NCBI RefSeq assembly: GCF_009363855.1 | Contig: NZ_CP045423.1 | Location: forward strand, 960,001-1,024,000 | From: Microvirga thermotolerans | Lineage (GTDB): Bacteria; Pseudomonadota; Alphaproteobacteria; Rhizobiales; Beijerinckiaceae | Length of the DNA: 64,000 nucleotides | Reading direction: 5' to 3' | Part shown: in pieces, positions 2,854 through 9,901 of the stretch | Layout of the letters: each line of letters begins with the position of its first letter | Position numbering within the stretch: the first letter of the stretch is position 1 | The notes under the pieces: generated by a model | Told to the model about the DNA's origin: nothing | Database searches by the model: none | The model's input: the letters and a program-made list of their open reading frames with translations, nothing else | Translations under genes and position numbers: made by a program

Positions 2854-3366
2854 TCAGAACGGGATGTCGTCGTCGAGATCGCCGAAGCGCGAGCCGCCGC
2901 CGCTGCCGCCGGAGGCCGCCGCCGGCCGCCGCTCCAGCGGCGAGGAGCGCCCGAACTCGCCGCCCCGGCTCACCTGGCCCGGCTCCTCCTCGCCGTACTC
3001 CGCCGAGCCGCCGCCGCGCCCGTCCAGGATCGTCAGCTCGCCCCTGAACCGCTGCAGCACCACCTCGGTCGTGTAGCGCTCCTGCCCCGACTGGTCCTGC
3101 CACTTGCGCGTCTGAAGCTGCCCTTCCACGTAGACCTTCGAGCCCTTCTTCAGGTACTGCTCCGCCACGCGGCCCAGGTTCTCGTTGAAGATCACCACCG
3201 AGTGCCACTCGGTCTTCTCCTTGCGCTCGCCGGTCGCCTTGTCCTTCCAGCTCTCCGACGTGGCGATCCGCAGGTTCACCACCGGCTCCCCCGAGTTCAG
3301 CCGCCGCACCTCCGGATCCCGCCCCAGGTTCCCGACCAAAATCACCTTGTTCACACTGCCTGCCAT
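2854..3366 (-). CDS. ssb: Single-stranded DNA-binding protein
   Basis: Binds and protects ssDNA and recruits repair partners. The protein has 170 residues: an OB-fold domain at about 1-110 with the typical start [16 protein letters not shown] and motif WHSVVIFNE, a Gly/Arg/Ser-rich linker, and the acidic tip DLDDDIPF that docks partner proteins. Length and tail are normal for a functional SSB. It has its own LexA box 79 bp upstream (3445-3459) and sits in a cluster of repair genes, not beside uvrA, where the housekeeping alphaproteobacterial ssb is often found. It is therefore probably a second, damage-inducible SSB; that paralogue status is inferred, since the rest of the genome is not visible. 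Confidence 0.95.
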
Positions 3367-3880: not shown

Positions 3881-4282
3881 TCAGGCAGCGGCCCGGTGGT
3901 CCGGCGCGGGCAGCAGGCCGAGCCGGCGGGCCAGGATTCTCTTCGTCACGGGTCCGATCCACGGCAGGGTCGAAAGGAACCCGAGCTTGTCGTTGCTGGC
4001 CGCGTAGTCCCGAAAAAGGCGGTCGCGCTCGCGCCAGACGCGGTCGACCGCATCCGCCTTGGCGGGGTGACGGAAGCCCATCCGGGCGGTCGCCCCCAGG
4101 GCGAGCGCCTGCATGCACCGGTCGTAGGCGCGCCGGCCCACGGAGGGGGTGACGCTGGCCTGGCAGATCGCGAAGATCACGTGGCCGGCGAAATCCTCCG
4201 CCGTCACGGGCGGGGCCGGATCCCCGGTCGTCCGGTTACCGGCAGGCGGCGAGCTTGGCCGTAAGTTCACTTTATGTTCCAT
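3881..4282 (-). CDS. Truncated HhH-GPD DNA glycosylase-like protein
   Basis: Protein of 133 residues starting at ATG 4282, inside the end of the upstream gene (16-bp overlap), which suggests translational coupling. Residues 104-122 (STLPWIGPVTKRILARRLG) look like the helix-hairpin-helix of HhH-GPD base-excision glycosylases. The preceding helices (RHPAKADAVDRVWRERDRL) fit the alpha-helical core of that fold. After the hairpin comes APDHR, which lines up with the catalytic Asp region of the family, but the protein stops three residues later, whereas full enzymes normally continue for a further domain. The next 35 nt lead straight into another gene, so no lost tail is visible. It may be a DNA-binding remnant or a minimal form. 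The family link is an inference from motif order. Confidence 0.55.
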   Translation of the reverse strand: MEHKVNLRPSSPPAGNRTTGDPAPPVTAEDFAGHVIFAICQASVTPSVGRRAYDRCMQALALGATARMGFRHPAKADAVDRVWRERDRLFRDYAASNDKLGFLSTLPWIGPVTKRILARRLGLLPAPDHRAAA

Positions 4283-4845
4283 GCCGCTTGAATCATCCGA
4301 ACGAGGTTCGTCCCCGTCCTGCGGATCCGCTTCGGAGCCTGCGCGAGGTCGAAACGGGGCTGGCGCGCCCGGGTGCGCGTCGCGTGAGGGCGCAACCCCT
4401 CCGCGAGGCGCGCCCGCCCGTTGGCGGCAGGTGGAAAAGCTTCGCAATTGTCTGAATTCTCAATGCGTTCCCGCTCCAGATAGATGGGATTCCGAGGGGG
4501 CCGCTGCAAGGCCTGGAGCGTCGGGAGGGGCGCCGTTGCCGCATCCGCCGGTTGCGGCCAGCGGGCGATGTCCCGCCTCGCGATGGAGAGGCTCCGGGCG
4601 AGGTCGATGTCGGACTCGATCCTGTGAAAAGCCACTGCGCAGGTGAACGCCTCGGTGAACGGCGTCATGGCGCACCAGGTCTTTTCCGCCATGTGCAGGG
4701 GCCAGGCCCACAGGCCGTCCCCCCGCTTGGCGCCCAGGCTCTCGCGCTCGATGAAGTAGCCCGTCGCCTTGTGCTCCAGGCCGCTCTCCGTCACGAGCCA
4801 TTCTTCGTTCTCGAAGATCGATCCTTCGTCCGCCACGGCTGTCAT
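4267..4845 (-). CDS. Hypothetical protein, first gene of SOS operon
   Basis: Protein of 192 residues from ATG 4845; I do not recognise the family. The N-terminal half (about 1-100) looks like a folded domain with many aromatic residues (EEWLVTE, LWAWPLHMAEKTWC, FTEAFTCAVAFHR). The C-terminal half is Arg/Ala/Pro-rich and low in predicted structure, ending AAWNIK. The start lies 71 bp from the LexA box at 4916-4930, and the stop codon overlaps the next gene, so this is the promoter-proximal gene of a three-gene SOS-regulated operon (4845 down to 3571). An upstream in-frame extension to 4959 was not chosen because it would cover the operator. Function unknown. Confidence 0.6.
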   Translation of the reverse strand: MTAVADEGSIFENEEWLVTESGLEHKATGYFIERESLGAKRGDGLWAWPLHMAEKTWCAMTPFTEAFTCAVAFHRIESDIDLARSLSIARRDIARWPQPADAATAPLPTLQALQRPPRNPIYLERERIENSDNCEAFPPAANGRARLAEGLRPHATRTRARQPRFDLAQAPKRIRRTGTNLVRMIQAAWNIK

Positions 4846-4915
4846 TCCGACATCCTCCAGGCGACGGCAGCGGTGCCACAAAGGCGCCATCTCCGACGCG
4901 CATGAGTTGAAACAG

Positions 4916-4930
4916 GAACAAAAAGAGAAC
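4916..4930. promoter_or_regulatory. LexA (SOS) box in divergent promoter region
   Basis: GAACAAAAAGAGAAC is GAAC-N7-GAAC, the LexA operator of alphaproteobacteria read on the other strand. It lies 71 bp upstream of the leftward three-gene operon and 199 bp upstream of the rightward coiled-coil/ATPase/nuclease operon. Control of the leftward operon is likely; control of the rightward one is possible but the distance is long. Confidence 0.82.
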
Positions 4931-5128
4931 ATACCGCAGGGTGAGTCGGTGTCAAGCAAATGCGCTCGTGCGGACTGTAATCTCGGAGTAACCGATATTA
5001 TCTGGGAAGGAGTGGGGTAGGATTAAAGAGCTCGCGGCATCGGCGTCCGAAAATGAGACGAAGCACTCGCGGGCCTTCACTGCTCAGCTTGACTTCGGAA
5101 ACGGCTGCCTGACGAGGGGAGGAGCCAC

Positions 5129-5428
5129 ATGACGACGAGCCCGAAACGGCCGGGGGGCGACAGCCTTGGGCGTCTCGAGGAGATGCGCGCGGCCTACGAG
5201 CGGCTGCGCGCGGAGCGGATCAGGGCCGAGGGAGAGGTCGAGCGGCTGGGGCGCGAACTGGACCAGGCGCGCGCCCGGGCGCGCGAGGCGTTCGGCACCG
5301 ACGACGAGGCGGAGCTGCAGCGGCTGATCGAGGCCGCCATGTCGGAGAATGCGAAGCGGGTGGAGGATTTCGAGGCAATCCTCGGCGAGGTCGAGACGCG
5401 GCTCAGGCAACTGGGGAGCGAGCCGTGA
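5129..5428 (+). CDS. Small coiled-coil protein preceding Rad50-like ATPase
   Basis: Protein of 99 residues, start ATG 5129 with GGGGAGGAG 6-10 nt upstream. Nearly the whole chain is charged heptad-like helix (LEEMRAAYERLRAERIRAEG, EVERLGRELDQARARAREAF), broken near residue 55 by GTDDE. That is the layout of a short helical hairpin. Its stop overlaps the start of the ATPase gene by four bases (5425-5428), so the two are translationally coupled. Because the ATPase lacks a normal internal return coil, this protein may supply or cap coiled-coil material in the complex; that is inference. It has no catalytic motif and no membrane segment. Confidence 0.75.
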   Translation: MTTSPKRPGGDSLGRLEEMRAAYERLRAERIRAEGEVERLGRELDQARARAREAFGTDDEAELQRLIEAAMSENAKRVEDFEAILGEVETRLRQLGSEP

Positions 5429-7248
5429 CGGGCGAAGACGCCGTCGAACGGAAGCTCGGCCTCGCGGCGGCTGCCCTCGCGCGGCTCGAGGGGCGCCGCG
5501 GCGCCCTGGCGGCGCGCAGCGAGGAGCTGACGCGCGCAATCGAGCTCGCCAAGGGGCGCCTTGCGGTGAAGGACGAGGTGGAGGCCTTCATCGAGGCCGT
5601 CCACGGCAGCGCCAGCCGGCGCAATCTCGAAGCGTTCGAGACGCTGCTCTCGGCCCTCGTGCAGGAGGTCCTGCCGGGGGAGAAGCCGGTGGCGCTGGAC
5701 CTTTCGACGGAGCGCGGGCTCGCCGCCCTCGACATCTGCGTCAGGCGTCCCGACGGCTCTCTCGAGGACGTGCTCGAGGACAACGGGGGCGCGCTCACCA
5801 ACGTCGTGGGCATGGCGCTGCGCCTCATCGCCGTGGTGAAGGCCGACGTGGCGCGCTTCCTCGCTCTCGACGAGGCCGATTGCTGGATCGCTCCGGACCG
5901 GGTGGCCGCGTTCTACCGCGTGCTCGAGGACGGCGCCCGGCGGCTCGGCGTCCAGTGCCTCGCGGTCTCGCACCACGACCTCACGCAGTTCTCCGAGCGG
6001 TTCCACATCGCGCGCATCGAGGGCGAGCCGCTCTCCGGCGTGACGGTGCAGTCGGCCGACTGCAGCGGCCTCTGGGACGACGCGGCGCCGGGCCTGCGCT
6101 TCATCCGCCTCGTCAACGTCCAGGCCTGCGCGGATGCGACGCTTCGGCTGAGCCCGGGCGTCAACGCGCTGATCGGGCCCAACAACCGCGGCAAGTCCAC
6201 CTTCATCCGCGCCCTGCGCGCGGTGTTCTACGGCGAGGCGCGCGACAGCCTCGTGCGTGCCGGCGCGAAGACGGCGACGGTCGAGATCGGCGTCGCCGGA
6301 CACAGGACCCTGCGCTTCACGCGCCAGCCGCGTCGCACGCCGGTGAACGTCTGGTCGCTTCATGAGCCCGACGGGGGCGTCGTGGAGACCGAAGGGATGC
6401 GCTACGAGACGGGCGGCCGAACCGTGCCGGACTGGGTGGCCGCGCTCTTCCGGATCCGGAAGGTGGAGGACCTCGACGTCCACATCGCCCATCAGAAGTT
6501 TCCGGTGTTCCTGCTGGGAGAGCCTGCATCCCGCCGCTCGGCGGTTCTCTCCATCGGCCAGGAGGCGAGCTACATCCGCGACATGCTCGCGATCCATCGC
6601 GAGCGCTGCAGCCGCGACAACGCGCTGGTGCGCAACGGCGAGCGCGAACTCGCGGCCTTGCGGGAAGAGATGGAATCCCTCGCCGGCCTCGACGGGATCG
6701 GGCGCTCTCTCGCGGAGGCCCGCGCGAAGGCGGAGCGGATCGATCTCGCCCGTCGCCGCGTGCAGGCGCTCCGGGACGCGCTGGCCCGGCTGGAGGATCT
6801 CGCCTGCCGCCTGAGGCGCGCGCGGGCGCGGGCCGCAGCGACGGATCTCCTGCCGGATCCCGCGCGCGTCGCGACGCTTTCCGCCGATCTGCGGCGGGAG
6901 AAGGAGCGGAGCCGCGTCGCCCGCGACGTCATCGATGCCGCCGGCCGCCTGCGCCGTGCCGAAGCGCGCCTGTCCTGCCTGCGGTCCCTGCCGGAGGCGC
7001 TGCCCGCTCTCGAAGACCCGCGGCCGGCGCAGGACATGCTGAAGCGTCTCGCCGACCTGCGCAGCGGGTCCGAACGGGCGCGCGAGCGCCTGGCGCGCGT
7101 CGACGCGGAGGCGGAGCTTCTGCGGGTCGAGATGGAACGCCTCGTCGAGGAGAACGGCGGCCTCTGCCCGACCTGCGGCGCACCGGTGAGCGCCGAGACT
7201 CTCCTCAACCACCAGGCCCATTCCGCCACGGAGCGCATGACCGCATGA
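5425..7248 (+). CDS. Rad50/SbcC-like ATPase with permuted lobe order and terminal zinc hook
   Basis: Protein of 607 residues whose ABC-type ATPase halves are in reverse order compared with Rad50/SbcC. Residues 1-55 are coiled coil. Then come the elements of the usual C-terminal lobe: a degenerate signature (NGGALTNVVGMALRL, 120-134), Walker B FLALDEAD (145-152) and an H-loop VSHHD (181-185). The elements of the usual N-terminal lobe follow: Walker A GPNNRGKST (251-259) and a Q-loop region HQKFPVFLLGEPASRRS (356-372), the segment that in Rad50 precedes the first coil. A long coiled coil (about 385-575) then leads to a CPTCG zinc-hook motif (581-585) only 22 residues from the C-terminus. The termini thus lie at the hook, as if the protein had been circularly permuted there. 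It overlaps the small coiled-coil gene and the nuclease gene by four bases each. The expected role is DNA-end processing with the nuclease. Serine of the signature is replaced by Asn. Confidence 0.85.
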   Translation: MTGEDAVERKLGLAAAALARLEGRRGALAARSEELTRAIELAKGRLAVKDEVEAFIEAVHGSASRRNLEAFETLLSALVQEVLPGEKPVALDLSTERGLAALDICVRRPDGSLEDVLEDNGGALTNVVGMALRLIAVVKADVARFLALDEADCWIAPDRVAAFYRVLEDGARRLGVQCLAVSHHDLTQFSERFHIARIEGEPLSGVTVQSADCSGLWDDAAPGLRFIRLVNVQACADATLRLSPGVNALIGPNNRGKSTFIRALRAVFYGEARDSLVRAGAKTATVEIGVAGHRTLRFTRQPRRTPVNVWSLHEPDGGVVETEGMRYETGGRTVPDWVAALFRIRKVEDLDVHIAHQKFPVFLLGEPASRRSAVLSIGQEASYIRDMLAIHRERCSRDNALVRNGERELAALREEMESLAGLDGIGRSLAEARAKAERIDLARRRVQALRDALARLEDLACRLRRARARAAATDLLPDPARVATLSADLRREKERSRVARDVIDAAGRLRRAEARLSCLRSLPEALPALEDPRPAQDMLKRLADLRSGSERARERLARVDAEAELLRVEMERLVEENGGLCPTCGAPVSAETLLNHQAHSATERMTA

Positions 7249-8249: not shown

Positions 8250-8897
8250 TCAGAACGCGAACGGATCGGAATAGGGCAGGCGCCGGCGCCGCACGGGGGT
8301 TTCCGGCAGGATCGGGCGGCCGATGTCGACCGCGACCAGCCCCTCGCATGCGAGCGCCAGGACGGCGGCGACGCCGTCGGCGGCGTTCATGGCCGCGCCC
8401 GCGCAATCCACGAGCCGCATGGTGCCGCATTCGTCGAGCTGATGGAGAATCCGCACCCGGTCGCCGGCCGTCACGGGCGTTCGCCTGCAGGCCATGATGA
8501 GGCGCACCGTGGTGAAGCGCGGCTCTGCGCGGATGCTCGCGGCCGTCTCGAGCACGAAGGGCCGCCCGTCCTCCGCCACGGAGCCGTGGAGGGCGGCGGC
8601 GCGAAGAGGATGGCCGAGCAGGTCGGCCTCCGCGACCACGTCGACGAGGACCGGCCCGCCCTCGCGGACGATCTCGAAATCCGCCACGTGCTCGACGGTT
8701 GTCTCGCCCAGCACGAAAGTGGCCGCAGGAGCGGGCGCCCGCAGCGCCTCCACCTCCGGGTCGAGCTCGCAGATGGCGAGGAAGTCGGCGATCAGGGCGG
8801 GGCGCGTGGGGGCGGGGGCGGCGCTCCTGCGGACCCGCTTCGCCCCGGGCCGGATCATGCGCCGCGGGGCGAGGTCGAGAATGGCTTGCGCTGTCAT
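8250..8897 (-). CDS. TnsA-like protein with degenerate active site
   Basis: Protein of 215 residues. Residues 35-90 follow the layout of TnsA-type PD-(D/E)XK endonucleases: an E/DPEV helix (CELDPEVEALRAPAP, 43-57), a strand pair, then HVADFEIVREGGPVLVDVV (70-88). In active TnsA the last strand carries an acidic or Gln residue and a Lys; here the Lys position is Val, so catalysis is doubtful. The C-terminal part (about 135-215, TAGDRVRILHQLDECG and onwards) could be the winged-helix domain of TnsA. No TnsB or TnsC gene is near, so this is not an active transposon. The gene ends 6 bp from the nuclease gene on the opposite strand and has a LexA box 62 bp upstream (8959-8973). The assignment is an inference from pattern. 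Confidence 0.5.
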   Translation of the reverse strand: MTAQAILDLAPRRMIRPGAKRVRRSAAPAPTRPALIADFLAICELDPEVEALRAPAPAATFVLGETTVEHVADFEIVREGGPVLVDVVAEADLLGHPLRAAALHGSVAEDGRPFVLETAASIRAEPRFTTVRLIMACRRTPVTAGDRVRILHQLDECGTMRLVDCAGAAMNAADGVAAVLALACEGLVAVDIGRPILPETPVRRRRLPYSDPFAF

Positions 8898-8973: not shown

Positions 8974-9164
8974 ATGATCGCAAGCGTCAATTCCCGCAGG
9001 CTCGAGACCCGTTCTCGCCAGGTCCGCACCTTGAGAACTGCTTTCGCACATTCGAGGCTGACCTTGAGGCAAAACGACGCGACCATAAAGATATTGGAAA
9101 ATAACGGGTTTCAACCTTGGCAATACTGCCTTGAAGCTGGATCCGGGAGGTCCGATCTGCTATA

Positions 9165-9179
9165 GAACAAACAAAGAAC
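9165..9179 (+). promoter_or_regulatory. LexA (SOS) box of annealing-like gene
   Basis: GAACAAACAAAGAAC is GAAC-N7-GAAC and lies 72 bp upstream of ATG 9251. The preceding TATAGA (9161-9166) may be part of a -10 element overlapped by the operator, which would let LexA occlude RNA polymerase; the matching -35 is not clear. Confidence 0.85.
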
Positions 9180-9250
9180 AAGCACGCTGCCGCGGCGGTC
9201 CGGAAGGCCCTCGGGCCGGCGTGCTCCCTCCGTCGAGACGAGGATCGAGC

Positions 9251-9901
9251 ATGAATACGACAGACAAGAAGATCGCCGAGGTTCTGGCCAAGTTCGGCGA
9301 GCCGATGGCCGGCAACATCTGGCGCGTCCAGGGAACGGCCGTGATCTATCACAAGGCGCTCGAGCGCATCGCGGCGCAGGCCGCGATCCAGTTCGAGCCG
9401 CCGACGATCATCCGCGCGGAGCGGGACGAGGCGGTGATCCTGGTCACCGGACGCATGGGCGAGCGGGTGGAGTGGTCCATCGGCGAGGCTCTGGTGGGCA
9501 CCAACTACCGCGTTTCGGGCAAGCAGGCGGCCTATGTCTACGCCATGGCCGAGAAGCGGGCGAAGGACCGGGTGATCCTGAAGCTGATCGAGCTCCACGG
9601 CCTCGTCTACTCCGAGGAGGAGGCGGACGAATTCAAGAACAGCCGCCCCGCGCCCGCCGAGCCGCAGGCGGCGAGCGAGAGGACGGCGGTCGAGATCGTC
9701 GGGCCCGAGGCCGGCGTCGAAGCGGAGCTCAAGGGAAAGATCTCCAAGGCGAAGAGCATCAACGCCGTGACCGACCTGATGCTGCACGCCGATACGCAGC
9801 GCATCCTGAACGACCTGCCGGAGGGCGTGCGCGACGAGATCCGCGACTTCGCGAAGGCCCGCCTGGTCGAGCTGGGCTGGCCCTCGAAGAAGGCGGCCTG
9901 A
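9251..9901 (+). CDS. Phage-type recombination protein, possible ssDNA-annealing protein
   Basis: Protein of 216 residues from ATG 9251; an in-frame upstream extension to 9131 was rejected because it would cover the LexA box. Residues 1-130 form one domain with WRVQGTAVIYHKALERIA, then strands, WSIGEA (75-80), and the strongly patterned AMAEKRAKDRVILKLIELHG (98-117), followed by YSEEEADEF. The layout of a beta-sheet followed by an Arg/Lys-rich helix recalls Rad52, Erf and DdrA annealing proteins of phages and damage-tolerant bacteria, but I cannot name the family with certainty. A linker and a small helical C-terminal domain follow (about 160-216). It is SOS-controlled and near ssb and the ATPase/nuclease pair, which fits an annealing role. 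It ends in a strong terminator. Confidence 0.6.
   Translation: MNTTDKKIAEVLAKFGEPMAGNIWRVQGTAVIYHKALERIAAQAAIQFEPPTIIRAERDEAVILVTGRMGERVEWSIGEALVGTNYRVSGKQAAYVYAMAEKRAKDRVILKLIELHGLVYSEEEADEFKNSRPAPAEPQAASERTAVEIVGPEAGVEAELKGKISKAKSINAVTDLMLHADTQRILNDLPEGVRDEIRDFAKARLVELGWPSKKAA

Follow-up and report, generated by a model that had tools for sequence, protein, structure and literature searches.

A lobe-swapped Rad50/SbcC-type ATPase encoded between a hairpin-protein gene and a nuclease gene in Microvirga thermotolerans

The gene set and the chain order of its ATPase

The 64,000 nucleotides of Microvirga thermotolerans DNA analysed here (contig NZ_CP045423.1, positions 960,001 to 1,024,000; the window) encode three tightly packed genes, for a small helical-hairpin protein, a Rad50/SbcC-like ATPase and an SbcD/Mre11-like metallophosphoesterase (Table 1). 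The stop of the hairpin gene overlaps the start of the ATPase gene by 4 bases, as it does in 59 of 89 loci, and the start of the nuclease gene overlaps the ATPase stop by as many (74 of 89); the small gene was not detected in 4 of the 89 loci, nor the nuclease gene in 3. In canonical Rad50 the chain runs from the N-lobe through a coil, the hook and a second coil to the C-lobe. Read from its open reading frame (ORF), the window ATPase starts instead with the C-lobe motifs and continues with Walker A, the Q-loop, an arm and a near-terminal CPTCG; as the initial annotation had proposed, and as the profile matches described below agree, the two lobes are directly joined and the CxxC hook motif stands at the C-terminus. 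The names signature, Walker A and B, H-loop and Q-loop are those that we take these motifs to deserve. The topology is circularly permuted relative to Rad50/SbcC.

Walker B, Walker A and a CxxC no more than 70 residues from the chain end follow one another in all 63 distinct complete proteins, the window protein included, so the swapped order is kept by the homologues. These 63 proteins derive from 89 complete loci, which are redundant between two collections; four loci truncated by contig ends (L069, L076, L080 and L081) were left out beforehand, and a second homologue in genome G008, a fragment in genome G026, three weak partial matches and nine of 21 plasmid records lie outside the count. 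An alignment of 21 homologues, as little as 21% identical to the window protein, holds 18 invariant columns, among them G122, R133, D149, E150, Q177, H183, G251, G256, K257, Q357, C581 and C584, and the order of the motifs is therefore not a matter of chance. LSGGE is absent from all 21 aligned proteins, the window protein having DNGGA.

Helices occupy residues 3-82 and 379-576 of the ATPase, and 22 residues remain past CPTCG. The stretch ahead of the signature measures 118-123 residues in 15 of the 21 aligned ATPases (77-136 overall) and amounts to the root of a coil only. The N-terminus thus sits close to the base of the coil, some 120 residues ahead of the signature, so that the half of the coil that should follow the hook is nearly absent from the chain. 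The proposal that both new ends lie at the hook thus holds for the C-terminus but not for the N-terminus.

Table 1. Features of the ATPase gene set and of its surroundings, in positions of the window
Feature	Positions	Strand	Basis or remark
Helical-hairpin protein, 99 amino acids (aa)	5129..5428	+	helices 8-55 and 60-96 around FGTD turn; 20 homologues aligned
Lobe-swapped Rad50/SbcC-like ATPase	5425..7248	+	607 aa, GTG start
Coil root and C-lobe, residues 1-224	5425..6096	+	profile of 17 N-halves; hhalign with phage C-lobes
Degenerate signature NGGA (120-123), at LSGGE place	5782..5793	+	G122 invariant, 21/21
Walker B FLALDEAD (145-152)	5857..5880	+	D149 and E150 invariant, 21/21
H-loop SHH (182-184)	5968..5976	+	H183 invariant, 21/21
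N-lobe, arm and terminal hook motif, residues 225-607	6097..7245	+	Rad50 profile matches; hhalign with phage N-lobes
Walker A GPNNRGKST (251-259)	6175..6201	+	G251, G256 and K257 invariant, 21/21
Q-loop glutamine Q357, within AHQKFPVFLL	6493..6495	+	invariant, 21/21
Helical arm with breaks (379-576)	6559..7152	+	AlphaFold2 model; arm lengths of homologues
C-terminal zinc-hook-like motif CPTCG (581-585)	7165..7179	+	both Cys invariant, 21/21; CxxC in 63/63
SbcD/Mre11-like metallophosphoesterase, 332 aa	7245..8243	+	GDPH, GDLFD, GNHD, HHD, NGHIH
Single-strand DNA-binding protein gene	2854..3366	-	Pfam SSB, E 4.8e-38
Divergent conserved neighbour	4267..4959	-	no Pfam or PHROG family match
Conserved neighbour	8250..8897	-	weak TnsA-like nuclease match, E 0.027, 13.9 bits (cut-off 110); no Pfam or PHROG match
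Conserved neighbour	9131..9901	+	no Pfam or PHROG family match

Homology of the two halves and their split phage relatives

Searched separately, each half falls on the matching Rad50 lobe. A profile of 17 N-halves matches 15 PDB sequences at E<=0.1, the best nine of which are all Rad50 entries (several being constructs of one protein), led by the Rad50 C-lobe chain 3qkr_B (E 1.2e-5), where profile positions 28-208 align with chain positions 3-177; the alignment of residues 1-220 with the Rad50 C-lobe, on which the initial annotation had staked its case, is thus found. The full-length family profile matches 64 PDB sequences at E<=0.01, and Rad50 5f3w_B leads the best 60 of them, profile positions 224-440 aligning with its N-lobe (chain 5-222) and a second, individually non-significant stretch of 3.3 bits placing profile positions 126-187 on its C-lobe (chain 289-350), that is, in swapped order. 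Pfam finds the N-lobe alone (AAA_23, E 2.1e-8), and the N-half by itself has no Pfam match at E<=1. The AlphaFold2 model of the monomer, a prediction that the initial annotation had called for, was made from 32 sequences and has a predicted local distance difference test score (pLDDT) of 77.3 and a predicted template modelling score (pTM) of 0.52. Its best Foldseek match is chain 9a9j_B of the Pyrococcus furiosus Mre11-Rad50 complex (E 8.8e-5, TM score 0.62 on the target), followed by a P. furiosus Rad50 ATPase chain and then by Rad50 and SMC chains; which lobe each of these chains covers we infer, the matches giving no aligned ranges.

Strictly taken, the ATPase is not a member of Rad50/SbcC, for it has neither the LSGGE signature nor the order N-lobe, coil, CxxC hook, coil, C-lobe. 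An N-lobe with Walker A and Q-loop and a C-lobe with Walker B and H-loop are present, and a putative zinc hook is recognised by its motif and a profile match. None of 61 relatives scores above the cut-off of 478.5 bits for the SbcC equivalog TIGR00618, nor do the matches listed include the window gene; the test is a strict one, since the cut-off is reached in only one of 14 control genomes. The ATPase nevertheless probably works like Rad50/SbcC.

The nature of the terminal motif can be read in two ways. The full-length profile also matches the Rad50 entries 6zff_A (E 1.9e-5) and 1l8d_A (E 0.001) over its C-terminal stretch, and these we take to be zinc-hook constructs, which speaks for a hemi-hook that pairs with that of a second chain. 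It is nevertheless possible, if on balance doubtful, that the CxxC and histidines of the tail form a self-contained zinc knuckle, with no zinc joining two arms: a histidine follows the CxxC in 63 of 63 tails (at least two in 60 of the 63), histidine makes up 12.6% of tail residues against 2.5% overall, and there is a weak Pfam zinc-finger match at residues 580-596 (E 0.07). The spacing of the tail histidines, however, is not conserved, and the sole histidine of the Aeromonas tail adjoins a cysteine.

The nearest relatives found are not single chains at all. Among phage families the N-half has its best match in phrog_15167, a C-lobe of 211 aa that stands alone and is matched by 16 of 17 N-halves; phrog_77 (SbcC-like), phrog_3940 and phrog_293 are each matched by one of the 17. 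For the C-half the best phage match is phrog_16465, a stand-alone N-lobe protein (E 2.5e-15). Bacillus phage vB_BboS-125 encodes both lobes separately, as gp32 (N-lobe, with the C-terminal end CPLCEQTHKGGGC) and gp35 (C-lobe), with the gene for gp34, a coil of 78 aa, lying between them. A scan of viral contigs based on gp35 gave 27 viral or prophage loci (L109-L135), vB_BboS-125 among them and many closely similar to each other. In all 27 the N-lobe ORF has a CPxC 5-16 residues before its end and a coil ORF of 77-79 aa lies upstream of the C-lobe, ending between 4 bases inside and 293 bases ahead of the matched C-lobe stretch; downstream, 26 of the 27 have a nuclease similar to that of the window (E 6.9e-25 to 6.6e-9), and L126 has none. 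When alignments were compared by hhalign, the N-halves paired with the phage C-lobes (probability 99.6, E 6.9e-24) and the full ATPase with the phage N-lobe proteins (99.9, E 1.2e-31), in the latter case through the terminal CxxC, while N-halves set against phage N-lobe proteins as a control gave a probability of 0.2%. The fused and the split systems thus resemble each other in halves that match nearly end to end, in a degenerate xGG signature, in a CPxC placed close to where the N-lobe chain ends, in a small coil gene ahead of the C-lobe and in a homologous nuclease downstream. Each half of the window protein has full-length homology to its phage counterpart, but the two are one ORF here: the phages have separate genes for N-lobe, small coil, C-lobe and nuclease, the window a small gene, a fused C-lobe/N-lobe and a nuclease.

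The permuted form itself was not found in phages. The full ATPase has no match in phage records, where the two halves give 2 and 25 weak matches; a pattern scan of viral contigs with the ATPase family alignment left none of 20 candidates confirmed; and of four phage loci inspected more closely, two yielded a stand-alone C-lobe only. The Aeromonas homologue has three partial matches in phage records; an unannotated 5.3-kb phage record (MT838391.1, 1914-2564, minus strand) matches residues 214-440 of that homologue (E 7e-4). Two candidates were discarded: gp4 of Microbacterium phage Magritte, considered as an N-lobe, matches clamp loaders, so that only gp2 (a C-lobe) stands, and gp53 of a Pararheinheimera phage belongs to another family (phrog_1499).

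That the lobes occur as separate chains in phages also suggests that they can associate in that state, and the interlobe linker of the window protein is short (about 20 residues). One may therefore imagine heads formed in trans, from the C-lobe and N-lobe of different chains, so that heads as well as hooks would link the chains into a polymer or a closed oligomer; a head formed in cis is simpler, and we regard this arrangement as unlikely.

The split loci also bear on the origin of the fused protein. The control comprised the four complete SbcC frames found in five regions of genomes of the same taxonomic order (L145 was left out). In these canonical genes Walker A lies near the start and LSGGE near the end, with a mid-chain CPxC in three and none in the fourth. 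Their best stretches score 8.3 bits (N-half profile) and 9.4 bits (C-half profile); the corresponding scores of the 27 split loci are 48.6-77.5 and 64.8-125.3 bits. Because the half-profiles score so much higher on the split loci, the window protein is best described as two phage-type halves fused in reverse order, and since the nearest relatives found are such half-proteins, fusion of two half-genes fits better than the permutation of an intact rad50. The circular permutation put forward initially therefore stands as a description of the topology but probably not as an account of its origin. In the usual textbook path to a circular permutation, an intact canonical rad50 or sbcC would have been duplicated in tandem and then stripped of its outer halves, without passing through a split stage; here this seems improbable, as each half resembles the split phage proteins far more than it does canonical SbcC of the same order, and the split proteins already end at the hook and share the xGG[AGS] signature.

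Arm, hairpin protein and nuclease in a working model

In alphaproteobacteria the arm between Q357 and the hook comes in lengths of 184, 188, 224, 261-264 or 303 residues, which differ by increments of roughly 40, and the prolines that mark LP motifs recur every 39-46 residues in several of these ATPases; the arms of beta- and gammaproteobacterial members (212-299 residues) fall off this ladder. The motif pattern used for these lengths missed four of the 63 proteins, which were measured separately. For the hairpin protein AlphaFold2 (pLDDT 89.3) predicts a pair of helices, 48 and 37 residues long. Its homologues have 96-112 residues in 16 of the 20 aligned and 134-213 in the other four, some starts having been chosen manually, and a PDB search with their profile gave three weak matches. 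The protein is a candidate partner of the arm and may stand in for part of the missing coil.

The nuclease has weak family matches (Pfam Metallophos, E 6.8e-5, 23.8 bits with a cut-off of 21.5; phrog_100, E 1.3e-7). The residues D21, H23, G63 and D64 and those of GNHD, HHD and NGH.H are invariant in all ten alpha- and betaproteobacterial nucleases aligned. GNHD, HHD and NGHxH are missing from all five gammaproteobacterial ones (Pseudomonas twice, Vibrio, Aeromonas and Alteromonas; L085, L086, L087, L088 and L092), of which the two from Pseudomonas retain GDP and GD but not the histidine of the first motif. All 15 nucleases, the gammaproteobacterial ones included, share an invariant F276 close to the C-terminus. 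These patterns suggest that the C-terminal tail of the nuclease binds the ATPase and that the gammaproteobacterial complexes do not cut DNA.

We favour, with a probability of roughly 0.7, the view that the window encodes a lobe-swapped Rad50/SbcC-type ATPase in the middle of a hairpin-ATPase-nuclease set, most likely derived by reverse-order fusion of split halves, and working through heads, clamp and hook. On this view a split phage-type system would have supplied the two half-ATPases, joined with the C-lobe ahead of the N-lobe. The fused lobes would fold into one head, and two heads would clamp ATP and DNA. A nuclease dimer would dock close to the heads by way of its conserved C-terminal tail. 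The single-chain arm would extend from the head, with the small hairpin protein packed on it in place of the missing second coil, and two terminal CxxC motifs would share a zinc ion, closing a ring or tethering DNA ends. The complex would likely serve to process and tether DNA breaks or fork ends, and the gammaproteobacterial plasmid versions, in which the nuclease motifs are largely gone, would retain a tether or clamp role only.

Several observations weigh against this reading. Among the best 60 of the 64 PDB sequences, the family profile also picks up, at the P-loop, many chains of SMC, RecN and other ABC ATPases; single sequences match Rad50 weakly, the C-lobe stretch of the window protein being non-significant when taken alone, and the C-lobe stretch of the full profile reaches no more than the 3.3 bits noted above. 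The pTM of the ATPase model is 0.52, residues 347-379 have a pLDDT below 50, and a single Foldseek match has E<0.001. The serine and glutamate of the LSGGE signature are missing, and ATP-driven head engagement may therefore differ. The nuclease profile hits no PDB sequence, with or without the gammaproteobacterial members. The change may also have run the other way, from a fused to a split form. No homology was detected between the small proteins of the window type and those of the phages, which accordingly share their position before the C-lobe only. Finally, the length of the small protein does not track that of the arm, which argues against simple pairing along it, and full-length pairing of the hairpin protein with the arm was discarded as the two lengths do not covary. 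Since arm lengths change in steps of about 40 and small-protein lengths are independent of them, a length-matched two-strand coil is disfavoured and a modular helical arm favoured. A more specific proposal, which we offer as tentative and rather doubtful, is an open-chain arm made of helical units of about 40 residues, capped by copies of the hairpin protein with helices of similar length and closed by zinc at its ends, with the gammaproteobacterial megaplasmids encoding a DNA clamp or tether that has a dead nuclease.

Neighbourhood, distribution and meaning

In most Microvirga loci the three genes keep their place between the divergent gene at 4267 and those at 8250 (minus strand) and 9131 (plus strand). 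Methylobacterium keeps parts of this six-gene order. In L063 and L074 the counterparts of the genes at 8250 and 9131 are inverted. A single-strand DNA-binding protein gene lies close upstream of the set and is likewise retained in most Microvirga loci. On plasmids, 12 of 21 loci were examined, two without annotated genes being read from ORFs, and recJ, recQ, helicase, ligase, topoisomerase or rdgC genes lie near the ATPase gene in 8 of the 12. That the ATPase serves anti-phage defence rather than DNA repair or maintenance is quite improbable in this light. It is matched by 35 PADLOC models at E<=0.01 (best LmuB, E 3.8e-10, followed by mads_3, GajA and others), but among the best 25 of these nearly all matches are confined to the P-loop region, the exceptions being one LmuB model that also covers residues 239-591 and mads_8, which matches 114-184; moreover, the nuclease and three neighbours have no PADLOC match, and the neighbours are conserved in most Microvirga loci. 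The matches of mads_3 (229-338, the N-lobe region) and mads_8 (the C-lobe region) fall on different halves, and MADS may hold another split pair.

The ATPase has a match in 36 of 61 relatives. Of the 37 genomes of the same genus, 32 encode it at full length, G026 has a fragment, and G005, G010, G012 and G022 have no match; none of 24 other genomes of the order carries it, three having weak partial matches (G038, G053 and G058). Wider samples gave 17 of 248 genomes of the family, 1 of 385 of the class and 2 of 398 of the phylum, the M. thermotolerans genome counted. The 51 loci in genome contigs belong to Microvirga, Methylobacterium, Antarcticirhabdus, an Aurantimonadaceae metagenome-assembled genome and a Rhizobiales isolate. 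Among 72,556 plasmid records 21 carry the ATPase, and three queries returned the identical 21. These plasmids are large (253 kb to 1.3 Mb), all typed as non-mobilizable, and come from alpha-, beta- and gammaproteobacteria (hosts Bosea, Rhizobium, Methylorubrum, Acidiphilium, Variovorax, Pseudomonas, Vibrio, Aeromonas and Alteromonas); one copy lies on the megaplasmid of Methylorubrum extorquens AM1, which offers a host for laboratory work. One same-genus genome, G008, has a second homologue, 33% identical (contig C33:235783-237336), and in G622 (contig C1:2698728-2700643) the homologue is split over two frames, perhaps by a frameshift or a sequencing error. The M. thermotolerans genome is a single contig of 3.82 Mb with 100% completeness and one copy of the ATPase, which excludes a local assembly error, and with the swapped order present in every one of the distinct complete proteins a rearrangement or error in one genome is virtually out of the question. 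In the 37 same-genus genomes the TIGR00618 search gave no more than 29.8 bits, while five other genomes of the order reach 136-152 bits; an SbcC may have been missed, since the search scored at most ten candidates per genome. The ATPase complex may be the only one of its kind in cells of the genus.

With Rad50/SbcC and its partner Mre11/SbcD the window set shares ABC lobes, Walker A and B, Q- and H-loops, a CPxCG hook motif and an SbcD-like partner gene; its ATPase differs in the swapped lobes, the C-terminal hook, the nearly absent second coil and the lost LSGGE, and, at 607 aa, is shorter than the 970-1254-aa frames of the four SbcC genes of the same order. The best NCBIfam match, through the N-lobe, is ASRP/ClsN/Sph (NF045487; E 9.6e-14, 50.9 bits, below the curated cut-off of 300), which is of similar length (593 model positions) and, in the parts of the source consulted, is described as archaea-specific, SMC-related and equipped with a zinc hook, but with the canonical order of an N-terminal Walker A and a C-terminal Walker B (PMC9389158). 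Mre11-Rad50 fusions are another unusual architecture of the same complex, also borne by plasmids and a phage; there the nuclease is fused ahead of the Rad50 part, and the sections seen describe no lobe swap (PMC3175470). Permutation, where the portions of the papers at hand treat it, concerns the T4 or Mimivirus genome (PMC3175470, PMC7326373), methylases (PMC7824862) or the KEN/HEPN domain (PMC3710099), and the consulted parts of PMC3482391 and PMC9389158 do not mention it. The initial annotation knew of no Rad50 described with this topology, and in the open-licence PMC literature we recognised no circularly permuted or lobe-swapped Rad50/SbcC, which is no proof of novelty.

The usual picture of Rad50, SbcC and SMC proteins is of one chain that extends to a hook or hinge and then returns. 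In the window ATPase the returning coil is nearly missing and the lobes are joined inversely, and phages encode the equivalent parts separately. Together, the swapped and the split forms suggest that a machine of the Rad50 kind does not need the usual single looped-back chain. They allow tests of whether end tethering, hook-to-head signalling and DNA entrapment depend on an uninterrupted arm-hook-arm chain, and the gammaproteobacterial versions with degenerate nucleases may, as a natural series, separate the function of ATPase and tether from that of cutting.

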